Source: Desulfocapsa sp. (GTDB taxonomy: Bacteria; Desulfobacterota; Desulfobulbia; Desulfobulbales; Desulfocapsaceae). From it: a stretch of 33,278 nt of DNA. Positions within the stretch are counted from its first letter, which is position 1; every line of letters starts with the position of its first letter. Of the stretch, positions 6,185-23,381 are shown one piece after another. Below the pieces are notes generated by a model, which had not been told where the DNA came from, did no database searches, and saw only the letters and a list, made by a program, of their open reading frames with translations. Location: contig JAQYVF010000053.1 in NCBI GenBank assembly GCA_030145625.1, positions 1-33,278 on the forward strand, written 5' to 3'. Position numbers and translations under genes: made by a program.

Positions 6185-9100
6185 ATGCCCTTCTCTCAAC
6201 TCTCCCTCTTCAGGATCATTTCCCCCCTCCTTCTGCTCCTGACTCTTCTCCCCTCCTGTGCAGCCGCCTCTCCCCTGCTTTCCTTAAAAGAGCAGATAAG
6301 TAAACTGAGCAGCCATCCGGAGAGAATCACAGGCAGTAAAGGATGCACCAGTGCTGCATCCTTTATCCGGGATCAATTTAATGGTATGGGCCTGACTGCT
6401 GAGACCTATCACTTTCCCGTATCTGTTCGTCATATTACAGGGGCAAATCTGCAGGTGGGAGCAAAGAGTATCTCCCTCGACAATTTACTCTATAATGCCA
6501 TTACGCCAGAAGCCACCAATGGCAAACTGAGCGGCCCGCTCTACTATGTCGGATCCGGAAAATGGTCGGAAATGCAAGGGGCTCGGATTGAGAATTCCAT
6601 TGTCCTCATGGATTCCGATTCCGGTCAAAACTGGCAGCATCTTGCATCATTAGGCGCACAAGCAATTATTTATCTCAACCGGGGCAAGCAGCAATCGAAA
6701 TACCTCTTCCAGGAAAAGGAAGAACTCACCCCTATTCAGCTCCCCTGCTTCTGGATGGAAGAAGAAGAGTTCTCTGCGATCTTTCCCGCCAGTACTCTCA
6801 CCAACCCCGGACTGCTTGCCAAGAATGTTACAATCAACTCCCAGGTTCACTGGCAGGAGACCATGGCCGAGAACATCTATGCCCTGATTCCCGGCTCTGA
6901 CCCGGACCTGAAAAATGAACTTTTGCTTGTGGAAGCCTTCTATGACAGTTCCGGATTCGTCGCCGGCCGTGCTCCGGGAGCAGACGAAGCTGCCTCCATT
7001 GCCACCCTGCTGCACACTGCTCGTACCCTGCAGGAGCACTCTCCTGCAAGATCAGTACTCCTGGTTGCCACCAGTGGCCACAGCCAATCCCTGGCCGGCA
7101 TGCGCGATCTCATCTGGAGCATCAGCAGCAAATCAAAAACCTTAAGAAAACAAAAAAAGCAGCTCAAAACTTCTATACAAACAACCCTGAAAAACCTGGA
7201 GATCCTGGAAAATCTGAGCTGGCCTCTACAGGAAGATGAGGAACGCGATACAATCCTTGCCGAGGCAATGGCGGATCACCTGAAGCTTTCCGTGGATTCC
7301 GTTTCCCGTGAACTGATCAGCCTCCGCTTACAACAGGACAACAGTAGTGCCGGCAAAGAAGCGATCAAAAAACTCTCCAAAACCCGCCTCCTCTATCGAC
7401 GCATCGGCTGGCGCAACTCCTTCCATGACATGGGGGCAGAAGAGACCAAACTCTTTCAAGAAGCCATCCCCCAGGCCATCACAAGTAACAAAAACAGAAA
7501 AATTGAACTCAAAGCCCACTCGAACGCCCTGAAGAGTGCCAAAAATTTTAGAGACTTAGTAAATGAGTATGATGTGGCAGCCATGGTTTCCCTGCATCTC
7601 TCCAGTCACGGAAATGGCCTGGGTGCATTTCACAAGGGTTTTCTTTACAATCTGAAAGCGGGGGTCAACCGAACCGGAATTTATTCTGATATAGCCGATC
7701 TGCTTGACAAATCCTCAAGTAACAGTTCCAGCACCACCCCCTACATCGACACCCTCAGACCCAGCCGTCTCCGCTCCTGGGACTCCTGGTTTCTTGACCA
7801 ACCCTCCTTAGGTGGAGAGGTCACATCCCTAGCAGGTTTTCTTGGCATCAGTTTGGTAAGCACCGGAGATGCCCGCGCAGCCTGGGGAACCCCTTGGGAC
7901 ACACCAAAAAATATCGACTGGACAAATCTTGACAACCAGGCGCGTCTGGTCAGTGATATGGTACAGACCATGGCCGGAACAGCCAAACTGCATTCCGGCA
8001 AACTTCCCCGCAAAGGTTTTTCAACCGTTAGCGGACGAGCCAATCTTCTTCTGCAGGGAGAGCTCTTCGCCGACTATCCTGCGGCAAAGACTACCCTGCT
8101 TGCCTATCAAGGCTTGAAGAAATTTTACACCACTGTCGATACATCGGGGACTTTTCAGATCAAGGGGGTCGCAGACAAAAAACATGTCCTGGACAAGGTC
8201 ATCATCGAAGGCTATCGCTTTGATGAGAAAACAGGACAGGTGCTCTGGGCCATTGATAAGAAGGAGACCGGAAAAAACAATTACCGCCTCAAAATCAGGA
8301 AACAGGAAGTCAAGACCGATCTCATCCTCTTCAGCTGCAAAGAGACCACCATCTTTGGCCTGCTCGAACCTCGCAACTTTCATTACCTGACTAAAATTCA
8401 ACTCCTGGACGGCCGCCGCGATGCCCCGCCTCAGCATTACTGGTACAGCCGTATCGACACACGCAGTTCCACCATGGCCTCCATCTATACGGAATCTGGG
8501 ACCTGGCTTAAGGCCACCCTGTCAGACAATGTGCTTACCCGCAAGCTGATCCTCACCAACGGTACACCACAGACCCCCATGGGATTCGGCTATTCGGTTG
8601 ACCAGTACGGCGCCATCCACAACACAATCTATCAAACTGCCCGAGATATCTGGACTCTTCTTGAACCCAGGATTGAAAACCTGGAGAGCCACGGCATCTT
8701 TGACTCCAAAATCAGTGAACTGAAGAAACGTGGTTTAAATGCCCTGCACAGGACCGAGGCCAGCCTGGCTGAATATGACTACGAGACCTTCAGCAGTGCG
8801 GCATCAGAATCTCTGGCCCTGGCCGACCGGGTCTATGTGCAGGTGGAAAAAACCCAGAAGGATGTCCTCTTTGGGGTACTCTTCTACATTGCCCTGTTTG
8901 TTCCCTTTGCCTTTTGCATGGAGCGCTTCCTCTTTAATTTTGCCAACATCTATAAACGGATCGTGGCCTTCAGCGCAATCCTGCTTATCCTCATCGCTGT
9001 TATTCGCCAGGTCCATCCCGCCTTTCAACTTGCATACAGCCCCACAGTGGTCATTCTCGCCTTCTTTATCATCGGCCTGTCACTGATGGTCAGCCTCATC

Positions 9101-11005
9101 ATCTTTTTCCGTTTCGAAGAAGAGATGATACTCCTGCAACGCCGGGCCAGTCACAAACGTCCTGCGGAAATCAGTCACTGGAAGGCCTTTACCGCAGCCT
9201 TTTTTCTGGGTGTGTCCAACCTGCGACGGAGAAGAATTCGTACGATTCTCACCTGCCTGACCCTTATCATTCTCACCTTTACCATCATGAGCTTCACCAC
9301 GGTAAAATCAGGAAAACGTCAGAGCAGGCTCTTTTTCCAGGAAAGCGCCCCGTATCAGGGACTGCTTCTGAAAAAGGTGGACTGGCAGAGCCTGCCGGTG
9401 GAAGCGGTAAGTATTCTTGTAGAGGGGTTTCAGGATGCCAGTGGCATCGCTCCCCGTATCTGGCTTGAAGCAAAAAATTCCACCCAGGCCGTACATGTTC
9501 CGCTTCAGCATAACAACAACAGTGCAGAGCTCCAGGGACTTATCGGACTCTCACCATCTGAAACCGAGGTCACAGGACTTGACAAGCTGCTCACTGCAGG
9601 ACGCTGGTTCACCAGTAATGACCGCCTGGCCATCATACTGGACCGCAATATGGCTCAGGCACTTAACGTTCCGACCGACGGCACTGGAAAAATCAAAGTC
9701 TGGGGCCAGGACTTTACCGTGATCGGCAGTTTTGATGGAGCATCCTTTGATCAGGCCCTGGACCTCGACGGTGAATCACTGACCCCGGTCACCTTCCCGG
9801 AGGAATCAGGGGCCGCGATCACCGAAGTCGAGCAGGAAGCAATGGAATCAGGAGATGACATCCGATCTTTTCAAAGCCGCTACCATCATATTCCCGCCTC
9901 ACAGGTAGCCATCATTCCGGCCACTACTCTTCTTACCATGGGCGGAAAGCTGAAGAATCTGGCGGTTCTTCCCCAGGGTAAAGATTCCATCAGCGACACT
10001 GCAGAAAGACTGGTGGACCGCTTTAGCATGGCAATCTTTGCCGGAGAAAAAGATGGGGTATGGCTCTACAACCAGAGTGACGCCATAAAATACAGCGGAC
10101 TACCCAACATACTGATCCCACTACTCATCTCTATCTTCATTGTCCTTAACACCATGATCAGCTCGGTATACGAGCGAAAAAATGAGATTGGCATCTACAC
10201 CTCAGTGGGGCTTGCCCCCTCCCATGTCTCCTTTCTCTTTGTCGCCGAGGCCCTTGCCCTGGCCGTCATATCCGTGGTCCTTGGCTACCTGCTCGCCCAG
10301 ATATCGGCCTCACTCTTTGCCGATACCAGACTATGGGCAGGACTCACGGTGAACTACTCCTCCATGGCAGGTGTTGCCGCTATGGTTCTGGTTATCGGAG
10401 TGGTCCTGCTTTCAGTAATTTATCCGTCTCGAGTGGCAGCCCAGATCGCCATCCCTGATGTCAACAGCACCTTTACTCTGCCCAAACCCGTTAATAACCG
10501 AATCACCATCACCCTGCCCTTTTTCATGAAATACGACGAGCATGATTCCATCGGAGGATTCATCTACAGCTATTTCAGCTCCCACCAGGATGTCTCCCAC
10601 GGAATTTTTTCCACCGGTCCGGTGGAGCTGGTGTTTGCCTGTGGCAACATAGATCAGATGAAAAAGCGACTACAAGATGCTAAAAATCCACACGAAGTTT
10701 ACTACACCTATATCCGGTCAAAAGTATGGCTTGCCCCTTTTGACTTTGGTATCATGCAATGGGTGGATATCCAATTCTGTCCCGTTGAAGGAGATGAAGC
10801 CTACCTGGAGATCAAAGTCACCATGGAACGTCGCTCCGGCGAGGAACAGGTCTGGCAGCGAATCAACACCTCCTTTCTCCATAACTTACGAAAACAGTTA
10901 CTGGTCTGGCGCTCCATTGATGATGCGAGCCATAAACACTTTGCTGAACAGTTCAACCAAATCGCAGCCAAGAGTCAGGCCACAGGAGAAGAACGCCATG
11001 CATAG
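6185..11005 (+). CDS. Fusion of degenerate M28 peptidase-like ectodomain with FtsX-type ABC permease
   Basis: A 1606-residue envelope protein. Residues 1-28 form a signal peptide (LLPSCAAA; a lipobox is possible but has Pro at -2). Residues about 30-310 and 455-605 resemble an M28 metallopeptidase, interrupted by a helical, Lys/Glu-rich segment (315-450). The PGADEAAS motif keeps Asp267, but the usual HYD is F252-Y-D254 and the usual catalytic/metal Glu-Glu pair is replaced by H299-S300, so catalysis is unlikely. Residues 610-880 are beta-rich. Membrane helices follow at about 898-918, 928-946, 954-976 and 1016-1038, then a MacB-like periplasmic region (1040-1300), then helices near 1303, 1348 and 1393 with the FtsX coupling segment YERKNEIGIYTSVG. 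A 190-residue tail ends the protein. It probably pairs with the 4603 permease and the 5427 ATPase. Confidence 0.85.
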   Translation: MPFSQLSLFRIISPLLLLLTLLPSCAAASPLLSLKEQISKLSSHPERITGSKGCTSAASFIRDQFNGMGLTAETYHFPVSVRHITGANLQVGAKSISLDNLLYNAITPEATNGKLSGPLYYVGSGKWSEMQGARIENSIVLMDSDSGQNWQHLASLGAQAIIYLNRGKQQSKYLFQEKEELTPIQLPCFWMEEEEFSAIFPASTLTNPGLLAKNVTINSQVHWQETMAENIYALIPGSDPDLKNELLLVEAFYDSSGFVAGRAPGADEAASIATLLHTARTLQEHSPARSVLLVATSGHSQSLAGMRDLIWSISSKSKTLRKQKKQLKTSIQTTLKNLEILENLSWPLQEDEERDTILAEAMADHLKLSVDSVSRELISLRLQQDNSSAGKEAIKKLSKTRLLYRRIGWRNSFHDMGAEETKLFQEAIPQAITSNKNRKIELKAHSNALKSAKNFRDLVNEYDVAAMVSLHLSSHGNGLGAFHKGFLYNLKAGVNRTGIYSDIADLLDKSSSNSSSTTPYIDTLRPSRLRSWDSWFLDQPSLGGEVTSLAGFLGISLVSTGDARAAWGTPWDTPKNIDWTNLDNQARLVSDMVQTMAGTAKLHSGKLPRKGFSTVSGRANLLLQGELFADYPAAKTTLLAYQGLKKFYTTVDTSGTFQIKGVADKKHVLDKVIIEGYRFDEKTGQVLWAIDKKETGKNNYRLKIRKQEVKTDLILFSCKETTIFGLLEPRNFHYLTKIQLLDGRRDAPPQHYWYSRIDTRSSTMASIYTESGTWLKATLSDNVLTRKLILTNGTPQTPMGFGYSVDQYGAIHNTIYQTARDIWTLLEPRIENLESHGIFDSKISELKKRGLNALHRTEASLAEYDYETFSSAASESLALADRVYVQVEKTQKDVLFGVLFYIALFVPFAFCMERFLFNFANIYKRIVAFSAILLILIAVIRQVHPAFQLAYSPTVVILAFFIIGLSLMVSLIIFFRFEEEMILLQRRASHKRPAEISHWKAFTAAFFLGVSNLRRRRIRTILTCLTLIILTFTIMSFTTVKSGKRQSRLFFQESAPYQGLLLKKVDWQSLPVEAVSILVEGFQDASGIAPRIWLEAKNSTQAVHVPLQHNNNSAELQGLIGLSPSETEVTGLDKLLTAGRWFTSNDRLAIILDRNMAQALNVPTDGTGKIKVWGQDFTVIGSFDGASFDQALDLDGESLTPVTFPEESGAAITEVEQEAMESGDDIRSFQSRYHHIPASQVAIIPATTLLTMGGKLKNLAVLPQGKDSISDTAERLVDRFSMAIFAGEKDGVWLYNQSDAIKYSGLPNILIPLLISIFIVLNTMISSVYERKNEIGIYTSVGLAPSHVSFLFVAEALALAVISVVLGYLLAQISASLFADTRLWAGLTVNYSSMAGVAAMVLVIGVVLLSVIYPSRVAAQIAIPDVNSTFTLPKPVNNRITITLPFFMKYDEHDSIGGFIYSYFSSHQDVSHGIFSTGPVELVFACGNIDQMKKRLQDAKNPHEVYYTYIRSKVWLAPFDFGIMQWVDIQFCPVEGDEAYLEIKVTMERRSGEEQVWQRINTSFLHNLRKQLLVWRSIDDASHKHFAEQFNQIAAKSQATGEERHA

Positions 11006-11049
11006 CCTGAAGTTATCAGCATCACAGATCCTCCAAGGGTATGATTATC

Positions 11050-13047
11050 ATGCATGAGCAACAGAAAACAGGATCAACCATTCGCCTGCGTGCCTTTTTC
11101 ATCGGTATAATTTTCGCCGTTGCCATCTGTCTGCTCACGCCCTTTAACAATATCTACCAGCAGGCAACACCTCTCGGTGGCGGACATTTTCCCCTGGCAC
11201 CCTTTTTCATTTTTCTCCTGCTCACCATCCTTACTGCTCTAACGGCTAAAGTCTTCCGCTCTACATCCCCATTTTTCTCCGGAAGCGAGCTGTTGATTAT
11301 CTGGATAGAAATGGTCATTGGTTCAGGAATCGCCTATACCGGACTTGCCCGGACCTTCCTCCTCAATATCACAGCTCCCATCCATTACGCCTCGGTCAGT
11401 AACCAATGGCAAGAGAGCCTGCACAGCGTCCTCCCCTCCGGGATTACTCCAACCGATAACAGGGCCATCGAGATGCTTTATACCGGGCTTGCCGGAGGAA
11501 GGGATATGAGCTGGCTGGAAGTGGCTTCTGCCATCCCCTGGCAGCCGTGGCTCACTCCGCTCATGCTCTGGAGCTGTTTTGTTCTTTTGTCCTACGGATT
11601 CATGCTCTTCATCATCAACCTCCTCTCCCGCCAATGGATCCATAATGAACGAATAAATTTCCCCCTGCTTCGCGTCCCGGAAATGTTGAGCAAATCCTTT
11701 GATGAAGGAAAACTCAGCACTTTTTTCAGTAATCGCTTCCTCCTGGCTGGCCTCCTTTTTCCGGTTTGCCTCCACCTCCTGAACGGCTTTCACTTTTATT
11801 ATCCCTCTGTGCCCCAGTTGCCAACATTGATCCTGGCCGGCCCCTACTTTCCGGACTTCGGTCTTTTCTCCGGCTTTCAGAAACTCAAGATATACATTTA
11901 TCCGGCCTTTATCGGCTTTGCCTTTCTTACTTCTCGGCAGATCTCTTTCAGCTTCTGGTTCTTCTTTATTATCGGCGGACTCTTTTTCGGTATTCTTGGC
12001 ATGCTCGGCTATACCATCCCCGCCTCGGAGTTGGGTATCACTTTTGGTCCTACGCTGGCCAGACCTGAAGAAACACAGATGATCGGTGCTTACGGCATCT
12101 TCTTTTTCTTTCTCCTCTGGCTGGCAAGGGGTCACCTCCTTGAGGTAACCAGAGAATCCCTTTTTCTTGTAAAACCCAGTAAATCACGAACTGAATGGTT
12201 CGATGTCCGTTTTTCTTTCTGGGGCTGCATCTTCTGTTTCGGGGCTCTGCTCTACTGGGCCACCTGGCTGGGCCTGGATCTCTCCACAGCCTTCCTTTTC
12301 TTCTCTGCGGCATTTATGATCATGCTGGTAGCGACCAGGATTATCTGTCAGGGTGGCCTTGCCTACTTCACTCTACCCATCGCCCCCATGGACGGCTTGA
12401 TGGCTATCAGTGGAACCAAACTCTTCAGCGGGGTAAACGGATTGATTTGCGGAATGTGTCAGAAGGCACTTTTTGTCGACCTTCGTGAATCCCTGATGCC
12501 CTCACTCCTGCACGCCCGTAAACTGAGTCATAGCAGCAGTACCGGGCTCCTGATCTTTTCAGGTCTCTTTTTCACCATTCTTGCAAGTCTTGTGGCCTCA
12601 ATTCTTGCTATGATGACCCTCTACTATCGATATGGAATCAGAGAGTTACAGATGGAATGGGCAAACCGGACCACGGTGACGGTCTTTGAAAATGTGCACA
12701 GACTGCTCACAGCTCCCATGGAACCAGGGAGCTGGATTACCTTTTTTGCCATATGCGGGGCAGTGGTCATGCTGATCCTGGTCATCTGTTACCACCGTTT
12801 CTACTGGTGGCCAATCCACCCACTGGGCTATCTGACTGCATACAGTTCAGCCATGCGTATCCTCTGGGTCAGTTTCTTTGTCGGCTGGGCCTGTAATGCA
12901 CTCTGCATGCGTTACGGCGGTGTCTCTCTTTTTAAAAAGGTTCAGTTTTTCTTTATTGGACTCATCATAGGTGACTTTCTGATGGGAGGAGGCTGGGCTA
13001 TTGTGGGACTCTTTACCGATTCCGGTTACCAGGTACTCCCTGACTAA
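11050..13047 (+). CDS. Polytopic membrane protein, DUF6785-like
   Basis: A roughly 665-residue integral membrane protein with about 14 predicted helices. Its N-terminus (NIYQQATPLGGGHFPLAPF, then GSGIAYTGLARTFLLNITAP) matches my recollection of the DUF6785/DUF6784 family, transporter-like proteins often found beside OPT-like peptide transporters; no substrate is established. An in-frame ATG exists at 11041, but an AAGGG site at 11035-11039 would touch it, whereas it sits 10 bases ahead of the ATG at 11050, so the latter is chosen. The gene follows the permease-peptidase fusion by 44 bases and precedes another large polytopic gene by 88 bases, in line with one transcript. The family name is from memory; membrane topology is seen directly. 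Confidence 0.78.
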   Translation: MHEQQKTGSTIRLRAFFIGIIFAVAICLLTPFNNIYQQATPLGGGHFPLAPFFIFLLLTILTALTAKVFRSTSPFFSGSELLIIWIEMVIGSGIAYTGLARTFLLNITAPIHYASVSNQWQESLHSVLPSGITPTDNRAIEMLYTGLAGGRDMSWLEVASAIPWQPWLTPLMLWSCFVLLSYGFMLFIINLLSRQWIHNERINFPLLRVPEMLSKSFDEGKLSTFFSNRFLLAGLLFPVCLHLLNGFHFYYPSVPQLPTLILAGPYFPDFGLFSGFQKLKIYIYPAFIGFAFLTSRQISFSFWFFFIIGGLFFGILGMLGYTIPASELGITFGPTLARPEETQMIGAYGIFFFFLLWLARGHLLEVTRESLFLVKPSKSRTEWFDVRFSFWGCIFCFGALLYWATWLGLDLSTAFLFFSAAFMIMLVATRIICQGGLAYFTLPIAPMDGLMAISGTKLFSGVNGLICGMCQKALFVDLRESLMPSLLHARKLSHSSSTGLLIFSGLFFTILASLVASILAMMTLYYRYGIRELQMEWANRTTVTVFENVHRLLTAPMEPGSWITFFAICGAVVMLILVICYHRFYWWPIHPLGYLTAYSSAMRILWVSFFVGWACNALCMRYGGVSLFKKVQFFFIGLIIGDFLMGGGWAIVGLFTDSGYQVLPD

Positions 13048-13135
13048 AAAAGCTAGAGGGAGAACGGTTGGAGACTAAAGGAAAAAACAACTCTACCTTC
13101 AGCCTTCCACCCTAATCATCTGAGAATTTAATATT

Positions 13136-15094
13136 ATGTATGATGACAAAGAACTAAAAGAATATCGTGACCTCCTTAAACCTCCAGACCATTTTGAAGA
13201 GGGGTTTGACTGGAAAACCGTTGTCGGGGCCATATTCATCGGTTTCCTGATGATGCCGGGTTCCATGTACCTGCAGCTGGTGATTGGCCAGGGAATCGGA
13301 CCGGCAGCACGCTGGGTAACCATCATCCTTTTTGCCGAGGTAGCCAAAAGGGCGCATTCTGAACTGAAACAGCAAGAGATCTTTCTCCTCTACTACATGG
13401 CCGGTGCTGCCCTAGCCTCACCCTTTTCCGGCCTTCTCTGGAATCAGTATCTGGTCCAATCCGACGCGGCAAAGATGCTGGGACTGGCCGAATTTATCCC
13501 TTCCTGGGTAGCCCCTGGTGCGGAGTCCCAGTCCATGGTGGAGAGAACCTTTTTCCATAGGGACTGGTTGATCCCCATACTCCTTCTGGTCGGGGCCCAA
13601 ATTATTCAGCGTATTGACCATTTTGGTCTCGGCTATGCCCTGTACCGCATCACCTCTGATGTTGAAAAACTGCCCTTTCCCATGGCCCCTGTAGCAGCGC
13701 TGGGCACCATGGCACTTGCCGAATCCACCGAAGAAAAGAAAAAAAGCTGGAAATGGCGGGTCTTTTCCATTGGCGGGGTCATAGGTCTGGTCTTCGGTGC
13801 CTTCTATGTCCTCCTTCCCATTGCCTCGGGCCTGATCTTCAACGAACCCATCCGTCTCATTCCCATCCCCTGGATTGAACTGACTGAACACACAGAAGGC
13901 ATACTGCCGGCAGTGGCAACAGGAATTCAGCTGGACCTGGGGCTGGTCTTTATTGGCATGGTGCTGCCGTTTTGGGCCGTCATCGGCGGACTCATTGGAC
14001 TTGTCATTACCATTATTCTCAACCCAATCCTGTATAGCCATGGCATTCTGCAGCGCTGGCATCCCGGCATGGCCACTGTGGATACAGTCTTTGCCAATAA
14101 CTTTGATTTTTACATGAGCTTTGGTATCGGACTGGGACTGGCCATTGGTGTCATTGGGATCTGGTCCGTATTCCGATCCTACCGCAGCACGAAGGAACAT
14201 ATGGGCACCCTGAAAGATCTCTTTCAGCCTCCGGCCGGACGAGGAGATTTTAACTTCTGGATCTCAATTGCAATCTACTTCTTCTCCACCCTTGCCTATG
14301 TAGGACTCTGCGTCTGGCTGGTTCCCTCATTCCCCTGGATCTTTTTCCTGGCCTACGGATTTATTTATACCCCCATTATCTCCTATATCACCGCCAGAAT
14401 GGAGGGCATTGCCGGGCAATTTGTCAGCCTCCCCCTGGTTCGAGAGGCCAGTTTCATAGCAGGAGCACGTTTTTTCGGCTATCAGGGACTGGAAATCTGG
14501 TATGCGCCGATTCCCATCCACAACTACGGTGAGGCCACCGTACAATTCAGACAGATTGAGCTTACCGGAACCTCCATTCGAGGGATTATTAAAGCGGAAA
14601 TCGTGGTCTTTCCCATTGTCATGGTGGCCAGCCTGCTCTTTTCTCAATTTATCTGGAGACTGGCCCCCATCCCCTCCAGCCACTACCCTTTCGCCCAGGA
14701 ATTATGGCACCTGCAGGCCCTCAACACCCTGCTGATGCAGACCTCTACCCTGGAAGGAAACTCCATGTTCTACCAGGCCCTGAATGCAGGCACGGTATTT
14801 TCCGGTCTTGGTTTTGGCCTGATCATGTATTTTGTCCTCAGTCTCTTTGGCCTCCCAATCCTTCTTATCTATGGAGTAGTCAGGGGACTCGGCCAATCCA
14901 CTCCGCACGGCCTGATCCTTGAGGTATTGGGCGCCTTTCTCGGCCGCTACTTTTTCCTCAAGCGCTACGGTCCCATGTGGCGGCAATATGCCCCGGTACT
15001 CCTGGCAGGATTTTCCTGCGGTATGGGCCTTACCGGCATGTTAGCCATGGGCCTGGCCCTGATCATGAAATCCCTGGGGCACATGGCCTATTAA
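13136..15094 (+). CDS. OPT-like oligopeptide transporter family membrane protein
   Basis: A 652-residue polytopic protein with about 12-14 hydrophobic helices and a short cytoplasmic N-terminus rich in charges (DDKELKEYRDLLKPP). Segments such as IFIGFLMMPGSMYLQLVIGQGIGPAARWV and the YALYRITSDVEKLPFPMAPVAALG stretch recall OPT-superfamily and related 'peptide transporter' proteins, which import oligopeptides or metal chelates using the proton gradient. It is the last gene of the cluster that starts at 4603; a hairpin just after the stop (15118-15141) may end the transcript. With the preceding DUF6785-like gene it makes a pair of similar size, perhaps two subunits of one carrier (inference). 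There is no clear ribosome-binding site before the ATG. Confidence 0.7.
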   Translation: MYDDKELKEYRDLLKPPDHFEEGFDWKTVVGAIFIGFLMMPGSMYLQLVIGQGIGPAARWVTIILFAEVAKRAHSELKQQEIFLLYYMAGAALASPFSGLLWNQYLVQSDAAKMLGLAEFIPSWVAPGAESQSMVERTFFHRDWLIPILLLVGAQIIQRIDHFGLGYALYRITSDVEKLPFPMAPVAALGTMALAESTEEKKKSWKWRVFSIGGVIGLVFGAFYVLLPIASGLIFNEPIRLIPIPWIELTEHTEGILPAVATGIQLDLGLVFIGMVLPFWAVIGGLIGLVITIILNPILYSHGILQRWHPGMATVDTVFANNFDFYMSFGIGLGLAIGVIGIWSVFRSYRSTKEHMGTLKDLFQPPAGRGDFNFWISIAIYFFSTLAYVGLCVWLVPSFPWIFFLAYGFIYTPIISYITARMEGIAGQFVSLPLVREASFIAGARFFGYQGLEIWYAPIPIHNYGEATVQFRQIELTGTSIRGIIKAEIVVFPIVMVASLLFSQFIWRLAPIPSSHYPFAQELWHLQALNTLLMQTSTLEGNSMFYQALNAGTVFSGLGFGLIMYFVLSLFGLPILLIYGVVRGLGQSTPHGLILEVLGAFLGRYFFLKRYGPMWRQYAPVLLAGFSCGMGLTGMLAMGLALIMKSLGHMAY

Positions 15095-15423: not shown

Positions 15424-17046
15424 GTGTCTTCTTCCTCTTATACAACTGGAAAGTCACCAGTAGCTCTTCGATCTTTGCTGCTGAAAACTCATCTTTTCCC
15501 TTTCCTGATATCTCTCCGAAGGATTTCCGGAAAGCTGCTAAATAAAGAGCACAAACTGGACGATACGACTTTTATGAGAGTTACAGCGCCACATATCCTC
15601 AACAAGAACCACTTTCTGTCCACTTTTTTTTCCAAGGCCCGTTCTCTGCCCATTGCCGTTAAACTGGCACTTATCATTACCACTGTCATTATCGTCGGCA
15701 TGGGCTTACTCAGCCTTTTTATCCTCGGTAACCAAAGCACCGTTTTTGACCAGCAGACAGACGCCTATGCCTCTGCTCTCGGCGATCAACTCTCCGCTGC
15801 AGCCATCGAACCGGTTCTGGCCGGAGACATCCTGGCCATTGATCAACTGACCACCAACCTGGCAAACAATGAAGGGATAGAGGGAGTCGCCATATTCTCC
15901 GATCAATCAACAATGCTCTCTTCAGTCGGGATAAACCCAGAACAGGACCCTGCCCTTTTTCTTCCCAAACAGCCACTGTACTGGCAGATCGGTGAGAGCC
16001 AAAAAATCGGTCTCACCTCCTATGTCAGCAAGATCAACTTCCGGGACCTGACTGTTGGCTACTGTCTCATCACCTTTGACCGTTCATTCATGAATACCGC
16101 CTATGGCAACACCATTCGAACCATTTCGGCAATCACAGCCCTGATGGTTTTTTTGGGCATCATAGTCGCAGCTTTTCTCAGCAAACAATTATCCAGGCCC
16201 ATTCAGCATCTTGTGGAGGGTAGCCGAGAAATTTCCCGTGGAAATTATCTTTATCGCTTTCATGAACGTCGTCAAGATGAGCTGGGTCAGCTTATGGGAT
16301 CCCTGAATACCATGACTGAAGGATTGTTGCGCAAAGAACAGGTAGAACGAACATTTTCCCGCTATGTCTCACCCAATGTGGCCTGCGCCCTGATGAACAA
16401 TATGGAACAGATCCATCTCGGTGGCAGTCATGTGGAAGCCACGGTGCTCTTTGCCGACATATCTGGTTTCACCAGTCTCAGTGAAGGACTGGAACCCACA
16501 GCAATCAATAGTCTGCTCAACGAATATTTCACCCTGATTGATCAGGTTGCCGGCAAACATGGCGGCCATATCGACAAATACATTGGAGATTGCGCCATGA
16601 TCCTCTTCGGCGTCCCCCTCCTAGATAAAGACCATGGCCTCAATGGCATCAACTGTGGTGTCGAGATCCAACAGGTAATCAAGGAATATAATCTCACTCG
16701 CCTGAAACAAGAAAAAATCACCGTTGAATTCAGTATAGGCATTAACAGTGGAACTATGCTGGCCGGAAATATGGGTTCAGAAAGACGCATGGAATATACG
16801 GTGGTCGGCAATGCCGTCAACCTCGCCTCCCGCCTCTCTTCCATAGCCACTGCCGGTCAGGTAATCGTTACCAGGGAATTACACGATAGTCTTGGCCTTT
16901 CCACACAGTTCGAAACCTCCCAAGCAGGAACAATTGCACTACGGGGAAAAACAGAACCGGTAGAAGTGTGGCGCATTGAGCTCCCACTGAGCATACTTGC
17001 CACCCCTGAACTCTTTGACACAATCCCACCCGGCCTGGTTCACTGA
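15424..17046 (+). CDS. Membrane-bound class III adenylate cyclase (HAMP-CHD)
   Basis: Up to 540 residues. A membrane helix at about 77-98 and another at about 233-254 enclose a periplasmic sensor; a HAMP linker (255-307) leads to a class III cyclase domain (about 330-510). Predicted metal-binding aspartates are D345 (in FADISGF) and D389 (in KYIGDCAM), 44 residues apart as is usual in the family. The nucleotide-binding segment MGSERRMEYTVVGNAVNLASR is well preserved, which favours an active ATP-to-cAMP enzyme. The start is uncertain: GTG 15424 has AGGAAAG 13 bases upstream, while the in-frame ATG 15574 (residue 51) has no ribosome-binding site but begins closer to the first helix. The TPR lipoprotein follows 7 bases later, and a cAMP-binding-type protein gene lies about 1.1 kb away on the other strand. 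Confidence 0.93.
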   Translation: MSSSSYTTGKSPVALRSLLLKTHLFPFLISLRRISGKLLNKEHKLDDTTFMRVTAPHILNKNHFLSTFFSKARSLPIAVKLALIITTVIIVGMGLLSLFILGNQSTVFDQQTDAYASALGDQLSAAAIEPVLAGDILAIDQLTTNLANNEGIEGVAIFSDQSTMLSSVGINPEQDPALFLPKQPLYWQIGESQKIGLTSYVSKINFRDLTVGYCLITFDRSFMNTAYGNTIRTISAITALMVFLGIIVAAFLSKQLSRPIQHLVEGSREISRGNYLYRFHERRQDELGQLMGSLNTMTEGLLRKEQVERTFSRYVSPNVACALMNNMEQIHLGGSHVEATVLFADISGFTSLSEGLEPTAINSLLNEYFTLIDQVAGKHGGHIDKYIGDCAMILFGVPLLDKDHGLNGINCGVEIQQVIKEYNLTRLKQEKITVEFSIGINSGTMLAGNMGSERRMEYTVVGNAVNLASRLSSIATAGQVIVTRELHDSLGLSTQFETSQAGTIALRGKTEPVEVWRIELPLSILATPELFDTIPPGLVH

Positions 17047-18127: not shown

Positions 18128-18664
18128 TCACTCATCCTCCGGCGGATCTTCCCGCCAAGCCTCCGGCGAAATATGACTAATCAGGTAATTCCTCTGATCG
18201 GCAAAGCGGTTGATATGAAGCTTGATAATCTTCTGCACCGCAATCGAATACGAATCGGAGAAACGCTCCATGACCTTGGTAAAGGCCTCGCGACTGATGG
18301 TCAGCAGGACTACATCTGTCCAGGCCCTGGCTGAAAATGGCCAGTCAAATTCAGCCAGCAGTGCCAGTTCACCAAAGTAATTAATGGAGTCTGCACCAAG
18401 CAGCTGCAAATGGAAACGGCGTCCCTTATGACTTTGATAAATATCAACCTTACCCGACATAATAAGAAAGATGCGATCGCAACGCACATCTGCGTTTACA
18501 ATAAGATCCCCTCTATAATATTCTTCTCTTTTGGCAAGATAGGCGAACATCTTTGTGACTCCGGCCGGTGCACCGGAGAAAATAGGCAGCCTGTTTAAAA
18601 ACTCCTGTGTGCCCGTGATCTTGCTCAAGGCATTCGGATCAAGAGTCTGCTCTGGCGAGGTCAT
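18128..18664 (-). CDS. Cyclic nucleotide-binding domain protein without HTH
   Basis: A 178-residue protein with one CRP-type cyclic nucleotide-binding fold (about 25-145): FLNRLPIFSGAP, then YYRGDLIVNADVRCDRIFLIMSGKVDIY, then NYFGELALLAEFDWPFSARAWTDV, where the GELAL segment matches the phosphate-binding cassette with an Arg in SARA. The C-terminal 35 residues are too short for, and unlike, a winged-helix DNA-binding domain, so this is a regulator of protein partners rather than a transcription factor. The start is placed at 18664 (MTSPEQ) because AAAAGGAG lies 6 bases ahead; an in-frame ATG at 18715 has no such site. The gene overlaps the end of the ABC transporter gene by 26 bases, which suggests translational coupling and a shared function. 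Confidence 0.88.
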   Translation of the reverse strand: MTSPEQTLDPNALSKITGTQEFLNRLPIFSGAPAGVTKMFAYLAKREEYYRGDLIVNADVRCDRIFLIMSGKVDIYQSHKGRRFHLQLLGADSINYFGELALLAEFDWPFSARAWTDVVLLTISREAFTKVMERFSDSYSIAVQKIIKLHINRFADQRNYLISHISPEAWREDPPEDE

Positions 18665-21203
18665 AAAATGCTCCTTTTCGCTCCATGAGTTCATCATATG
18701 TTCCCTGTTCAACAATTCGTCCTGCCTTCAGAACAACGATCCGATCATACGCCGGAGTCAAGTCAAGTCGGTGGATAACGGCAATCACCGTCTTTTTTCC
18801 CTTATAGCCGGTTTCAAGCAGCCCCTGGATGCGGGCCTGGGAAGTATTGTCAAGACTAGCCGTTGCCTCATCCATTATCAGGATAGGGGCATCTTTAAGA
18901 AATGCCCTGGCAATAGCAAGCTTCTGCTTCTGACCTCCCGACAGGCGATCACCTTTGCTACCTACCTCGAAATTCAGTCCGATATCCATCACCTCATCGA
19001 GAAGCTTTTCATCCTGAAAGGCCTGTTCTGCAATATCTCGCAGTTGTTCATCAAGGATGTTTTCCGATTTCACGGCACCAAACAGGATATTATCGAGTAA
19101 AGTATGGGTGTACATGTACTCACTGGGGCAAAAAGGAATAAAATCCATTTGCTCACCGGACTTACAGGTCTTGAGACAAGGAGTCCACATCTCAAGTCCA
19201 TTGCCATGGTCTGTATCTATATGAATCACAATTTCCTGAAATCGACGTCTTGCCCCAAGAATTTTTGCCTCCATGGCAGAAGGCAAAGAGATAATAGAAT
19301 GTTTTTCGGGGATAAATCGCAGGGCCAGGATGAGCAGCAGGCGACGTGCTTCTTTATCCTTCGGTTGTGGCCCGTTCAATCTGTCAATTAGTTGGGCATA
19401 GGTTGTAAACTCTTCAAGTTCCATTGGATTATCCCGGAAGAAAAATTCATCATCCTGGAAATCGGCCAGCAGGGCAACTGACTGTGTGGCAATGGCATAG
19501 CCCAGGGTCAACAAGGGTTTTTCCAGCTTCATTTCCCGTAGCAGTTCCATGAAGCTGCTGTGATCAGGTAGGTGTTCAATGACAAATTCCCCACTTAAAC
19601 TGTCACCAAAGACGATATTGTCACGAATGCTGGAATAATAGAGATAGGCCGAAGCATCATAAAACTCAATGGACTTCTCAAAATCCTTCTTTAAGCTGGT
19701 TTGGATAATCTGCCGCATACGCAGAAATTTTTCCCTGAACGGTTTACATTGCTCGGGCGTCAGTACCGCCTGCAGACCAAAGCGAATGATATCGTCCTGT
19801 AGACCAACTTGACGGATCACAGAAAGTACTTGAGAACGGTCAGGGACATGATTCTCGTCAACTATTGCCTGGATGCCATAAAGCAGATTCTCCCGAATGG
19901 TACCCGAAAAGATAAAGGGCTGCTGGGCAATCATGGCAACATTGCTGCTGACATCAAGTTTACTGAGCTCATCCATGTGATGATTGTCAATACTAATAGT
20001 ACCCTGGCTGGCATCATAGAGCTGTGCAATGAGGAGAGAAAGCGTCGATTTTCCTGATCCGGAATAGCCAACAAAGGCGATCTGTTCATTGGCCGCAATG
20101 TCCAGGTTAATACCTTCAAGCAGTTTTATACCACTGGGAACCGAAAAGGTAATATTTTTCATGCTGATATTACCCTGGAGTGTAAACGGATCACGACTGG
20201 AAGGCAGTAAGGCATGAGCAGGATCGAGATCGAAGATCTTCATAATCTGTTGATACCTTACCTGAGCGTCCTGATAGCTTTGATAATATTCAATAATTTC
20301 CTTCCACGGATCATACACCTTTTCATAAGCGGAAAGAAAGGCCACCAGTGCACCGAGGGTGAACTGACCATTAATTGCCATGTAACCGCCCACAAGGAAA
20401 AGGATAAAAGGTCCCATGGATTGAAAAAGATTGTTGGCAAACTTAATACCATACTTAATGACAAACAATTTCTTCAACAGGGCATATAGCTGTTGAATAT
20501 AGGAAGAAAGCTTTTTCTCTTCCAGACGATAACTGGCGTTCCCATGGATCTCATGAATTCCCGAGATGGATTCGTTCACCACATTAGCCATGGATCTAGT
20601 TGTCTTAACGCGTTTTTTGTTGAGCCTGTTGTACTTTTTCTGTAGAAAAGGGATAACAATAATCTCGAGAGGATATACCCCCATGCTCAAAAGAGCCAGC
20701 AAGGGGTTGAGATTAAACATGAAGCCTATGAACACAATAAATGTAAGCACACTGGTAATGGGGATGGCAATTGCACCACCCAGGAAGAAACCGATGGCAT
20801 TCAGTTCCGCGGTCATGGCCGAGATCACAGTCCCCGGTTGCATTTTCCGATAGAACTGTAAAGGCAGCTGTAAAACGTGATGGTAAAGTTCTGTGCGCAT
20901 CTCCACCAGAATTTTCTGCCCGATATAGAGTTGCATGACATTAATGGCGTATTTCAGCAGCCCTGCAATGGTGACCGCACCTATATACAGCCCGCAATAA
21001 AGAAAAAGCAGATGCGTATCTTTGAGATAAATAGCCTGATTAATGATGCGCTTCTGCATCTCAAGGGGAAAGACCTTAAAAAAGAGACTGATGACAATAA
21101 CCAGCAACAAAAATAACTGCATGGGCCGGTGGCGCCTGAGAATCCAGTAAAAAAGTGACCGTTCGGTGATGCGGACACTGTTATCTGCTGCAGTTTTTTT
21201 CAT
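18639..21203 (-). CDS. ABC exporter (membrane domain plus ATPase) with a large insertion in the ATPase domain
   Basis: An 854-residue half-transporter of the type IV/ABC-B exporter fold. Residues 1-330 hold six predicted helices; the ATPase domain follows with Walker A GYSGSGKST (about 378-386), Q-loop QQPFIFSG (about 425), signature LSGGQKQ (about 752), Walker B ILIMDEATASLD (about 773) and the switch His in VIHRLD. Usual relatives are 570-600 residues and separate Q-loop and signature by about 55-60 residues; here the separation is about 327. Inside the extra region the post-Q-loop pattern recurs: SGTIRENLLYG (about 431), YSSIRDNIVFG (about 522) and THTLLDNILFG (about 698). All catalytic motifs are intact and the frame is uninterrupted, so the protein is probably active. 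The CNBD gene overlaps its 3' end. The substrate is unknown. Confidence 0.93.
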   Translation of the reverse strand: MKKTAADNSVRITERSLFYWILRRHRPMQLFLLLVIVISLFFKVFPLEMQKRIINQAIYLKDTHLLFLYCGLYIGAVTIAGLLKYAINVMQLYIGQKILVEMRTELYHHVLQLPLQFYRKMQPGTVISAMTAELNAIGFFLGGAIAIPITSVLTFIVFIGFMFNLNPLLALLSMGVYPLEIIVIPFLQKKYNRLNKKRVKTTRSMANVVNESISGIHEIHGNASYRLEEKKLSSYIQQLYALLKKLFVIKYGIKFANNLFQSMGPFILFLVGGYMAINGQFTLGALVAFLSAYEKVYDPWKEIIEYYQSYQDAQVRYQQIMKIFDLDPAHALLPSSRDPFTLQGNISMKNITFSVPSGIKLLEGINLDIAANEQIAFVGYSGSGKSTLSLLIAQLYDASQGTISIDNHHMDELSKLDVSSNVAMIAQQPFIFSGTIRENLLYGIQAIVDENHVPDRSQVLSVIRQVGLQDDIIRFGLQAVLTPEQCKPFREKFLRMRQIIQTSLKKDFEKSIEFYDASAYLYYSSIRDNIVFGDSLSGEFVIEHLPDHSSFMELLREMKLEKPLLTLGYAIATQSVALLADFQDDEFFFRDNPMELEEFTTYAQLIDRLNGPQPKDKEARRLLLILALRFIPEKHSIISLPSAMEAKILGARRRFQEIVIHIDTDHGNGLEMWTPCLKTCKSGEQMDFIPFCPSEYMYTHTLLDNILFGAVKSENILDEQLRDIAEQAFQDEKLLDEVMDIGLNFEVGSKGDRLSGGQKQKLAIARAFLKDAPILIMDEATASLDNTSQARIQGLLETGYKGKKTVIAVIHRLDLTPAYDRIVVLKAGRIVEQGTYDELMERKGAFYDLARADS

Positions 21204-21546: not shown

Positions 21547-22146
21547 GTGAAGAATTTGGCCTTGACCGGCATTATACTTTTTTCCCTGTTTCTCCTTTTT
21601 CTCCCCAGCATGTCCTCGGCAAAAGAGGTCCCCCATGAGGTAGGAGGGTTTGTCTTGGGCAGCAATGTCACCGACTATCCGGACATAGAGTACTCAAACT
21701 TTCTCAAAGAAGTGGTCATTTACGATTGGCACGGGTTTGACAAAGGAATCATCTCTTACGGTATTTGTGAATTCCCCGGAGAGATTGTCAGGATCAAATT
21801 GAAATATGATGATTCCAGTAAGAAGTTTTTCAAAAAACTACTAAAAAAATACAAAAAAAAATATGGTAAACCAACCGAGTGGAAGGGAGACTCCTTTGGC
21901 ATTCTCCACATCTGGAAATGGAAGTTTATTGACAAGAACAATAATCGGGTTCATATGATCCTTCAGCATAACACCAGAAACTCAAATGAAAACATAGGCA
22001 ACATGGTCAAACTCTATTATCCTGATCGGATTGAACTGGAACAGCTTTGCTTCACCAAGAAATGCAATACAGTGGCAGAAAAGAATGAAATGATGAAGCA
22101 GATGAAACCGAAAAAAGACGAATGGGATTATCTGATTCCAAAATGA
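21547..22146 (+). CDS. Uncharacterised exported protein
   Basis: The protein has 199 residues with a Sec signal peptide (MKNLALTGIILFSLFLLFLPSMSSA, cut near residue 25). The start is GTG, supported by AGGAG at 21534-21538, 8 bases upstream. The mature protein has a Lys-rich middle (SSKKFFKKLLKKYKKKYGKP), a Trp-rich stretch (ILHIWKWKFID) and two Cys near the C-terminus (QLCFTKKC) plus one in YGICEFPG. I do not recognise the family. It leads a tight three-gene group with the 22154 and 23001 genes (7-base gap, then a 20-base overlap), so a role with the PqqD-like protein is possible but unproven. It is expected in the periplasm. Confidence 0.8.
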   Translation: MKNLALTGIILFSLFLLFLPSMSSAKEVPHEVGGFVLGSNVTDYPDIEYSNFLKEVVIYDWHGFDKGIISYGICEFPGEIVRIKLKYDDSSKKFFKKLLKKYKKKYGKPTEWKGDSFGILHIWKWKFIDKNNNRVHMILQHNTRNSNENIGNMVKLYYPDRIELEQLCFTKKCNTVAEKNEMMKQMKPKKDEWDYLIPK

Positions 22147-22153
22147 TCATGCA

Positions 22154-23020
22154 GTGACACCTTTCATCAACACATGGCGGACCATTGGCTGGAACGGTCT
22201 TATTCTCTCTTGTCCTGAAAAATGGGAAACCATTGTCTCCGGCAACCGACACCTCCTCTTTGAAGAAGACTTTGCCCCGATTTTTGAATTGCGTTGGCAG
22301 AACAACAACAAAAGCCCTGCAGAATCCATTCTTCGCAACCTGCAAAAGCAAACCGGTCTCTGCAGGCAGAAACATATATCCAGCAACTGGAATCAATTAG
22401 AAAAAGTCTATGAAATCATTCCACTAACAACAGAACAAAGCGATGAACAAAAGGGGGCTCTTCTCACCTGTCGACACTGTGGCACCAGCCTCCTTCTCTA
22501 TTTTTTTCATGCCCATTCCATGCAGCATCCTGAGTTACAACAAGTCCTTTCTTCCTTGAGCTGCCATAGCCCGGAAAAAAGAGACACATTATGGTCTATC
22601 CAGGATTTTCGAATTCTGCTTCCCCACAGGTATCAACTCAGCAGTCACAGCTTTGCTGCCGGCCTGACCCGGCTCACATTTATCGACTCCGGGCTCACCA
22701 TGCATCTTTGTCGCCTTGCACAGGCCTCCCTTCGCCTGCAGACGACAACACTCTCCGAGCTCATGCTCATCCTCAGCGGAATTCCTGTTTTAAAACAAGA
22801 AATTTCCCAAAAACCCCATTCAGTAAGACACAGTAATCATCCGTCCATTTTCCGGCAGATTCTCACTCGCCTCAAACGGAAACCACCTTTTCACAAGATG
22901 ATTTTACGCCACCATCCGGAATATGATCGTCTGACCGGATTATTTTTTGAGGACAAAAAACCCATCCCCAAGGAGCAGGTCAACACCATCCTGGAAAGTT
23001 ATGAAATTTTCCCCCTCTAA
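22154..23020 (+). CDS. Uncharacterised protein in a PqqD-like gene group
   Basis: The protein has 288 residues and no signal peptide. It starts from GTG 22154, 7 bases after the preceding stop; no ribosome-binding site is visible, so translation is probably coupled. Early segments (WRTIGWNGLILSCPEKWE, then LLFEEDFAPIFELRW) look like a beta-sheet domain. A CRHCG pair of cysteines near residue 103 and several His residues could bind metal, though only a single CxxC is present. The C-terminal third is basic. I do not recognise a characterised family. Its end overlaps the PqqD-like gene by 20 bases, a strong sign that the two products work together. Confidence 0.75.
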   Translation: MTPFINTWRTIGWNGLILSCPEKWETIVSGNRHLLFEEDFAPIFELRWQNNNKSPAESILRNLQKQTGLCRQKHISSNWNQLEKVYEIIPLTTEQSDEQKGALLTCRHCGTSLLLYFFHAHSMQHPELQQVLSSLSCHSPEKRDTLWSIQDFRILLPHRYQLSSHSFAAGLTRLTFIDSGLTMHLCRLAQASLRLQTTTLSELMLILSGIPVLKQEISQKPHSVRHSNHPSIFRQILTRLKRKPPFHKMILRHHPEYDRLTGLFFEDKKPIPKEQVNTILESYEIFPL

Positions 23021-23381
23021 TCACTCCTCTTCCCTCAATCGAACTCAAGCCCTGGCGTGCGTCCCCACACAAAACGACACCATCCAATGGCAACAGCTCG
23101 ACAGTGGAGAAATCCTCTTCACCTATCCCCTTCCTCTCAATCCTTTCTTTAAAGCGCTGCATCGAAAATTTGGCAGAAGTCAGGAAGACAACCCCATCAA
23201 AAAGCTGCAACTGGATGAGATGGGAAGTTTTGTCTGGCTGCAAATTGACGGCAAGAAAACAGTGCGGAAAATCATTCGGCACTTTGCCGAAGAATACAAG
23301 GTAACTGGTCAGGAAGCAGAACACGCCGTCACAGCATTCCTTAAAACCTTAGGACAGAGAGGATTTATAGCGCTCTCTTGA
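23001..23381 (+). CDS. PqqD-like protein
   Basis: This 126-residue protein has a C-terminal half (about 68-125) with the PqqD pattern: LDEMGSFVWLQIDGKKTVRKI, then a helix (FAEEYKVTGQEAEHAVTAFL) and GFIAL at the end. PqqD-family proteins are RiPP recognition elements: they bind a leader peptide and present it to a radical SAM or other modifying enzyme. The ATG at 23001 is preferred to 22947 because the longer form adds a low-complexity basic stretch lying inside the previous gene. No radical SAM gene and no obvious precursor peptide gene is seen next to it, so it may act in something other than PQQ-type maturation. Its only close partners are the two uncharacterised genes upstream. Confidence 0.82.
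   Translation: MKFSPSNHSSSLNRTQALACVPTQNDTIQWQQLDSGEILFTYPLPLNPFFKALHRKFGRSQEDNPIKKLQLDEMGSFVWLQIDGKKTVRKIIRHFAEEYKVTGQEAEHAVTAFLKTLGQRGFIALS

Follow-up and report, generated by a model that had tools for sequence, protein, structure and literature searches.

The ATPase domain of ATP-binding cassette (ABC) proteins is treated as nearly invariant across transporters, and an exporter gene from a Desulfocapsa sp. raises the question of whether one part of that domain can be multiplied and, if so, what the added copies do. The gene lies in a window of 33,278 nucleotides, which is the whole stretch of DNA that was analysed (contig JAQYVF010000053.1 of assembly GCA_030145625.1, positions 1 to 33,278). 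It encodes a half-exporter of 854 amino acids in which about 270 extra residues, here called the insert or arm, lie between the Q-loop and the signature motif. The comparisons described below support a true triplication of the ABC-alpha helical subdomain, with the two further copies held in the insert. Directly downstream is a gene for a protein with a cyclic nucleotide-binding domain (CNBD), which may be a dedicated partner of the exporter. The features on which the argument depends are as follows, with row counts referring to an alignment of the window protein with 43 homologues (44 rows).

18639..21203, minus strand: ABC half-exporter with a triplicated helical subdomain, 854 amino acids (open reading frame, Pfam, Foldseek and VIA)
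20331..21113, minus strand: transmembrane domain, residues 31-291 (PF00664, E 9.1e-33)
20043..20069, minus strand: Walker A GYSGSGKST, residues 379-387 (lysine in 44/44 rows)
19680..19940, minus strand: helical unit 1, residues 422-508, with a strand, the Q-loop, SGTIRENLLYG (19875-19907), a helical hairpin and a trailing helix
19218..19679, minus strand: helical unit 2, residues 509-662, with YSSIRDNIVFG (19605-19637), a hairpin, extra helices (about 581-640) and a trailing helix
18879..19163, minus strand: helical unit 3, residues 681-775, with THTLLDNILFG (19077-19109), a hairpin and the true LSGGQ
18930..18944, minus strand: signature LSGGQ, residues 754-758 (44/44 rows)
18867..18884, minus strand: Walker B region ILIMDE, residues 774-779, with the catalytic glutamate (Asp-Glu in 44/44 rows)
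18128..18664, minus strand: CNBD protein, 178 amino acids, the proposed partner (PF00027, E 3.6e-16)

The helical subdomain and its copies

The protein is a type IV (B-family, MsbA-like) ABC half-exporter with intact ATPase motifs. In the same chain the transmembrane domain is followed by an ABC ATPase domain (PF00005, E 3.6e-28), which includes the Q-loop AQQPF (QQPF at residue 427), LIMDEA at 775 and the switch AVIHR at 808. The original prediction held that Walker A, Q-loop, signature, Walker B and switch histidine are all intact while Q-loop and signature stand far apart, and both points were confirmed: the five motifs are intact in the window protein and in 44/44 aligned rows, and the distance is 327 residues, compared with about 55-59 in 11 ordinary exporters. 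The best 25 NCBIfam models in each list are all of ABC transport proteins. The top model for the exporter is MsbA (TIGR02203) at 318.3 bits, which is below the equivalog cut-off of 602 for assignment as the MsbA lipid A exporter, and the Pfam scan of the exporter gave no model for the inserted units as such. An artefact, chimera or frameshift was ruled out as the source of the insert by the 43 aligned homologues, which have an open frame and the three phrase copies.

An AlphaFold2 model of the exporter has a mean pLDDT of 83.7, lowest at residues 666-685, and matches ordinary exporters with Foldseek TMt values up to 0.92 (PCAT1). With VIA the model aligns to SAV1866 over 553 residues at Z 33.3, and the 50 matches listed range from Z 31.6 to 33.3. 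The model aligns with the ComA ATPase domain over its full 239 residues at 1.4 Å; the canonical ATPase domain of the model is thus complete and the insert is extra to it.

The phrase that follows the Q-loop recurs as SGTIRENLLYG at residue 433, YSSIRDNIVFG at 523 and THTLLDNILFG at 699. Each unit has columns that are invariant across the aligned rows, and the phrase asparagine is kept in all three units, even in relatives that lack the catalytic residues. Unit 2 is without a working signature; unit 3 bears the working LSGGQ. Aligning the segments of the single protein with one another gave a score of 63 for segments 1 and 2 (shuffles 25.9 ± 4.4, 0/2000 reaching 63), 44 for segments 1 and 3 (reached by 0.0005 of shuffles) and 45 for segments 2 and 3 (0.002). 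Such a self-alignment is suggestive but short, and profile tests with controls were therefore added.

In profile-profile comparison with hhalign on the 44 rows, units 1 and 2 match at E 1.8e-8, units 1 and 3 at E 7.9e-8 and units 2 and 3 at E 3.8e-9; extended versions of units 2 and 3 match at E 3e-12 with a probability of 97.6. The scores of the unit pairs are 41.8-48.4, compared with at most 21.8 for column-shuffled controls (60 per pair), and the linker blocks gave no profile-profile match to unit 1 on the same rows. A hidden Markov model (HMM) was built from the Q-loop-to-signature region, cut before LSGGQ, of the 11 ordinary exporters, which belong to other groups; these exporters, also used in the controls, are other loci of a pattern scan, a selection that favoured some resemblance to the query. 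At E<=0.01 the HMM finds unit 1 in 44/44 members, unit 2 in 21/44 and unit 3 in 43/44, and at the same threshold it finds the middle linker and each shuffled set in 0/44. At E<=1 unit 2 is found in 40/44 members (E 0.0019 in the window protein), and shuffles of unit 2 gave 0 and 2/44.

Structural comparison of the middle copy agrees with triplication, although it is the weaker evidence. In the full model the secondary structure of the three units runs in parallel, each with a strand, a short helix and further helices. Predicted in isolation, unit 2 has a pLDDT of 86.7 and lacks strands, and it has no Foldseek match at E<=1. When this isolated model was compared by VIA with 123 candidate chains, only 4 reached Z>=2, and all 4 are ABC ATPase domains (MRP1, CFTR and two MsbA; Z 5.1-6.6, 70-73 residues, 2.3-2.8 Å). 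Going by residue numbering, we take the matched ranges of these chains to begin at the Q-loop and to reach the signature helix. The Z values are middling, and it is the specificity of the matches that would carry weight for the predicted fold. Between units 1 and 2 the trailing helices match (E 7.4e-6, 0/60 controls). Sequence gave no support to a degenerate signature helix at the end of these two units: in the comparison with the true signature helix, 37 and 6 of the 60 controls scored as high. What speaks for such a helix is position and the VIA range of unit 2.

The original prediction that the post-Q-loop phrase occurs three times is thus borne out in the window protein and its 43 aligned homologues, and the repeated duplication of the helical subdomain that it proposed is supported by the profile-profile comparisons and the ordinary-exporter HMM, as well as by the self-alignment it had suggested, which beats its shuffles.

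The family, its CNBD neighbour and the relatives on plasmids

A search for homologues and their neighbours by way of the insert, also proposed at the outset, recovered a family with a recurrent CNBD neighbour. The insert is present in 40/96 relatives, 77/257 genomes of the class and 28/395 genomes sampled across the phylum, the window's own genome being included in each count. Members include Desulfocapsa-labelled metagenome-assembled genomes, Desulfogranum mediterraneum and D. marinum, Solidesulfovibrio aerotolerans, Desulfopila aestuarii and Desulfamplus magnetovallimortis, and length is similar across the Desulfobacterota. There are two paralogue groups, class A, which is the window type, and class B, which is about 40% identical to it and has a shorter insert match. 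The 43 aligned homologues were selected from the matches among the relatives; omitted were the window's own entry (L009), L026, whose frame is split in two, L027, a shorter form of L059, and short forms of longer loci. In a second set of rows the catalytic residues are also intact in 28/28, the window included, with mild variants in three (MSGGQ in L102, DEV in L104 and GKTT in L105). At least 10 family members occur among the 32 loci listed in a pattern scan of genome contigs, which used two unspecific patterns and sets no bound on the distribution of the family.

In the window, the last 26 bases of the exporter gene are shared with the CNBD frame when the latter is read from the ATG chosen here. 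At 60/68 Desulfobacterota loci scored, the exporter is followed immediately, on the same strand, by a CNBD frame, a total made up of 40/48 distinct loci (the window, L029-L068 where scored, L069 and L073-L078) and 20/20 loci fetched from the phylum sample, which are 20 of its 35 main matches. Each locus was counted once, with L017 covered by L069, and L070, L071 and L072 being repeats of L055, L059 and L060; L014 and L021, which lie near contig ends and outside the list of open reading frames, were left unscored. The CNBD frames were read from stop to stop, and their start codons are not fixed. No CNBD was found within 1 kb of 28 ordinary ABC open reading frames at 22 loci (0/28), by a profile that distant CNBDs would escape. 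The window's CNBD protein also has a weak match to a family 2B encapsulin shell model (42.9 bits, cut-off 400).

Other genes accompany the pair. The segments 6185-15094 and 21547-23381 form a conserved module, which in other genera runs in one direction and comprises an M28 peptidase-FtsX fusion (1606 amino acids), a DUF6785/DUF6784 membrane protein, a 652-amino-acid protein, exporter, CNBD, a 199-amino-acid protein, a 288-amino-acid protein and a PqqD-like protein. The 652-amino-acid membrane protein (13136-15094, plus strand) has no Pfam match at E<=0.01, yet its identity between genera of the family to which the window belongs is about 88-97%, well beyond that of its neighbours. Near the CNBD gene, at 15424-17046 on the plus strand, is a gene for a protein with HAMP and class III nucleotide cyclase domains, with a gene for a 373-amino-acid TPR protein between them. 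The same pair also occurs at L049-L051 and was not seen at the other window-type loci fetched. At L045, L066, L067, L076 and L077, SpoIIE-like, exporter, CNBD and RsbW-like frames stand in a row, which suggests a partner-switching circuit; domain annotation of the SpoIIE and RsbW frames was read at L067, L047 and L065.

Outside the Desulfobacterota the insert was searched for on plasmids, in addition to the pattern scan of contigs. The insert matched 11 rhizobial records by tblastn, and a rhizobial insert in turn matched 254 records, mostly from Rhizobium and Sinorhizobium. Among the 12 alphaproteobacterial records that were read, several are close relatives and so are not independent. The insert profile matches all 12 (E 2.4e-12 to 3.6e-40), each has three phrase copies, and the ordinary-exporter profile found all three units in three of these records (E 9e-8 to 0.01). 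The Walker A lysine, Q-loop glutamine and catalytic glutamate are lost in 12/12, and the signature is changed in 12/12, most mildly in S. meliloti (LTSGQ) and S. fredii (LTAGQ); the Ruegeria relative keeps the Walker B aspartate. From these substitutions, ATP hydrolysis appears to have been lost in the alphaproteobacterial relatives. A rhizobial protein might also pair with an active half-transporter.

The CNBD accompanies these relatives as well. It is directly downstream in 9/12 records and is fused to the exporter C-terminus in Ruegeria and Azospirillum (L126:5426-8521 and L127:5402-8464); at the Methylobacterium locus it was not found. The glutamate and arginine of the phosphate-binding cassette, which we take to be the marker residues of a canonical CNBD that binds cyclic AMP or cyclic GMP, are both kept in 9/9 separate alphaproteobacterial CNBDs, and the two fused CNBDs have aspartate and arginine. 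The S. meliloti member is on pSymB, and the S. fredii NGR234 copy (L132:5377-7056) is an open frame of 560 amino acids, compared with about 905 in its relatives. Glycosyltransferase genes lie upstream in the five annotated rhizobial records, with one opposite-strand gene between in S. meliloti.

What the enlarged helical region may do

The preferred reading, whose chances are about evenly balanced, is that the protein is a homodimeric, ATP-competent exporter with a triplicated subdomain and that a dedicated CNBD partner gates its transport through the helical region. The ABC-alpha subdomain of this type IV exporter would have been duplicated in tandem twice, leaving copy 1 after the Q-loop, copy 2 as an extra arm and copy 3 with the working LSGGQ. 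The CNBD protein encoded downstream would bind the exporter and most likely dock on its cytoplasmic side, and a ligand- or state-dependent movement of the CNBD would reach the membrane domain through the enlarged helical region, thereby timing transport. Since the alphaproteobacterial relatives keep the triple unit and a standard CNBD and lose the catalytic residues, the trait common to the family may be CNBD-linked conformational control rather than ATP turnover. The arm is probably not for ATP turnover alone, because it is kept in members without catalytic residues. The original prediction had likewise connected the helical region with the neighbouring CNBD protein; the connection is supported in part, by adjacency at 60/68 loci and by fusion in two alphaproteobacterial relatives, and the contact (with the coupling helices or the CNBD protein) and gating that it envisaged stay predictions.

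Several observations weigh against gating by the CNBD protein through the arm. At eight loci (L029, L031, L035, L044, L047, L048, L064 and L065) the exporter has the arm but no CNBD gene follows it immediately, so the arm would not be for the CNBD alone unless a CNBD is encoded elsewhere in these genomes. At L047, L048, L064 and L065 an RsbW-like HATPase frame is in the CNBD's place; at L047 a CNBD frame lies further away on the opposite strand. Divergence of the CNBD correlates with that of the transporter (r 0.85-0.89, 60 pairs), and the partial r over these pairs is 0.50 for the membrane domain, 0.31 for the arm and 0.25 for the ATPase core. Only for a subset of 16 rows is the value for the arm the higher (0.31 vs 0.26 for the membrane domain). 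This mirror-tree test for arm-specific coevolution with the CNBD did not single out the arm; the A and B labels of its rows follow a crude threshold and do not correspond to the two paralogue groups. The CNBD of the window keeps the cassette glutamate and has tryptophan at the position of the phosphate-binding arginine, with which an alignment to cGMP-dependent kinase 1 agrees. Both residues are present in only 1/38 desulfobacterial CNBDs examined, the window included, and ordinary binding of cyclic AMP or cyclic GMP by these domains is therefore doubtful. The branch without catalytic residues thus has a standard CNBD ligand site, whereas the branch that keeps them is mostly without one.

Alternatively, the extra units could be a platform for other cytoplasmic partners, such as an RsbW-like kinase, a SpoIIE phosphatase or glycan enzymes, which would place the exporter in a complex while the CNBD binds elsewhere, for example at the membrane domain or the C-terminus. 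This possibility, to be held tentatively, would account for the arm being retained at the eight loci that lack an adjacent downstream CNBD and for the RsbW-like frame at four of them. SpoIIE-HAMP or RsbW-like frames do occur beside a number of members, CNBD divergence tracks the membrane domain best over all pairs, and it is at the C-terminus that the CNBD is found in the fusions. All of these partners are less constant than the CNBD, however, and in the limited flanks fetched no RsbW-like frame was found at the window-type loci L030, L032-L034, L036-L039 and L049-L063.

A variant of CNBD control, though a rather unlikely one, is that the tripled subdomain and the CNBD make up a gating unit. 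In the alphaproteobacteria the ABC fold would then be switched by cyclic nucleotide alone and act as a channel, flippase or regulator, and in the Desulfobacterota the same unit would throttle an ATP-driven exporter. As to what is transported, the glycosyltransferase neighbours in rhizobia, L078 and L102 allow a guess at a glycan or glycolipid.

It seems distinctly unlikely that the extra units alter the mechanics of coupling independently of the CNBD, with spare copies of the phrase touching the coupling helices of the transmembrane domain, a contact that the original prediction had proposed. In its favour, the recurring phrase is the post-Q-loop element, and its asparagine persists in all three copies, including those of members that lost the catalytic residues. 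Against it, the copies are retained in alphaproteobacterial relatives without catalytic residues and so are hardly for ATP coupling alone. It is very improbable that the duplicated helices are a near-neutral elaboration, that is, padding tolerated in an otherwise ordinary exporter. The arm does evolve faster, at a mean identity of about 39% compared with 58-60% for the ATPase core, and its losses are uncountable because members were found through the arm itself; yet every copy has invariant columns, the length is similar in the Desulfobacterota and the copies persist in the alphaproteobacteria. That the insert is an unrelated domain resembling the helical subdomain by convergence on a short phrase is barely credible, for in spite of the missing Foldseek match and strands of isolated unit 2, the profile-profile E values of 3e-12 to 3e-7 with shuffled controls, the ordinary-exporter HMM matches and the restriction of the unit 2 VIA matches to ABC ATPase domains all argue otherwise.

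Comparison with known systems

Literature searches showed nothing on this exporter family or its neighbours; they did not cover subscription journals and preprints and so are no proof of absence. With a tripled signature subdomain beside intact catalytic residues, the family shows that copies can be made of the very element through which ATP is coupled to the membrane domain. Rhizobial members, in which the catalytic residues are lost while the copies and the CNBD remain, amount to a natural experiment that tells a regulatory role of the arm apart from ATP turnover, and since they include a genetically tractable laboratory organism, gating of an ABC fold by a CNBD partner is directly testable there.

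Like the type IV exporters MsbA, SAV1866 and TM287-288, the window exporter has this kind of transmembrane domain, and its model contains the canonical ATPase domain in full. It differs from them in its roughly 270 additional residues and in scoring below the MsbA cut-off. Large insertions also occur in other ABC ATPases, namely UvrA, Rad50/SMC and the ABCF arm proteins, and in UvrA and Rad50/SMC these are located between Walker A or the Q-loop and the signature. None of these proteins is a transporter; zinc, DNA-binding, coiled-coil or ribosome-contacting elements make up their insertions, which are not known to repeat the helical subdomain. PADLOC matches were set aside as resembling generic ABC or CNBD similarity.

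For the partner protein, the S. meliloti CNBD matches TIGR03896, 'bacteriocin-type transport-associated protein', at 47.8 bits, below the cut-off of 161. Going by its name, this model describes CNBD proteins tied to export systems, and it is grouped here with the NHLM ABC transporters as a near known system. CFTR and SUR are ABC-fold proteins that serve in gating or regulation and not only in pumping. Both are eukaryotic and have other regulatory insertions, and we know of no CNBD partner or triplicated helical subdomain in either. Their likeness to the present family lies in the regulatory use of an ABC fold, as is proposed here for the alphaproteobacterial branch.

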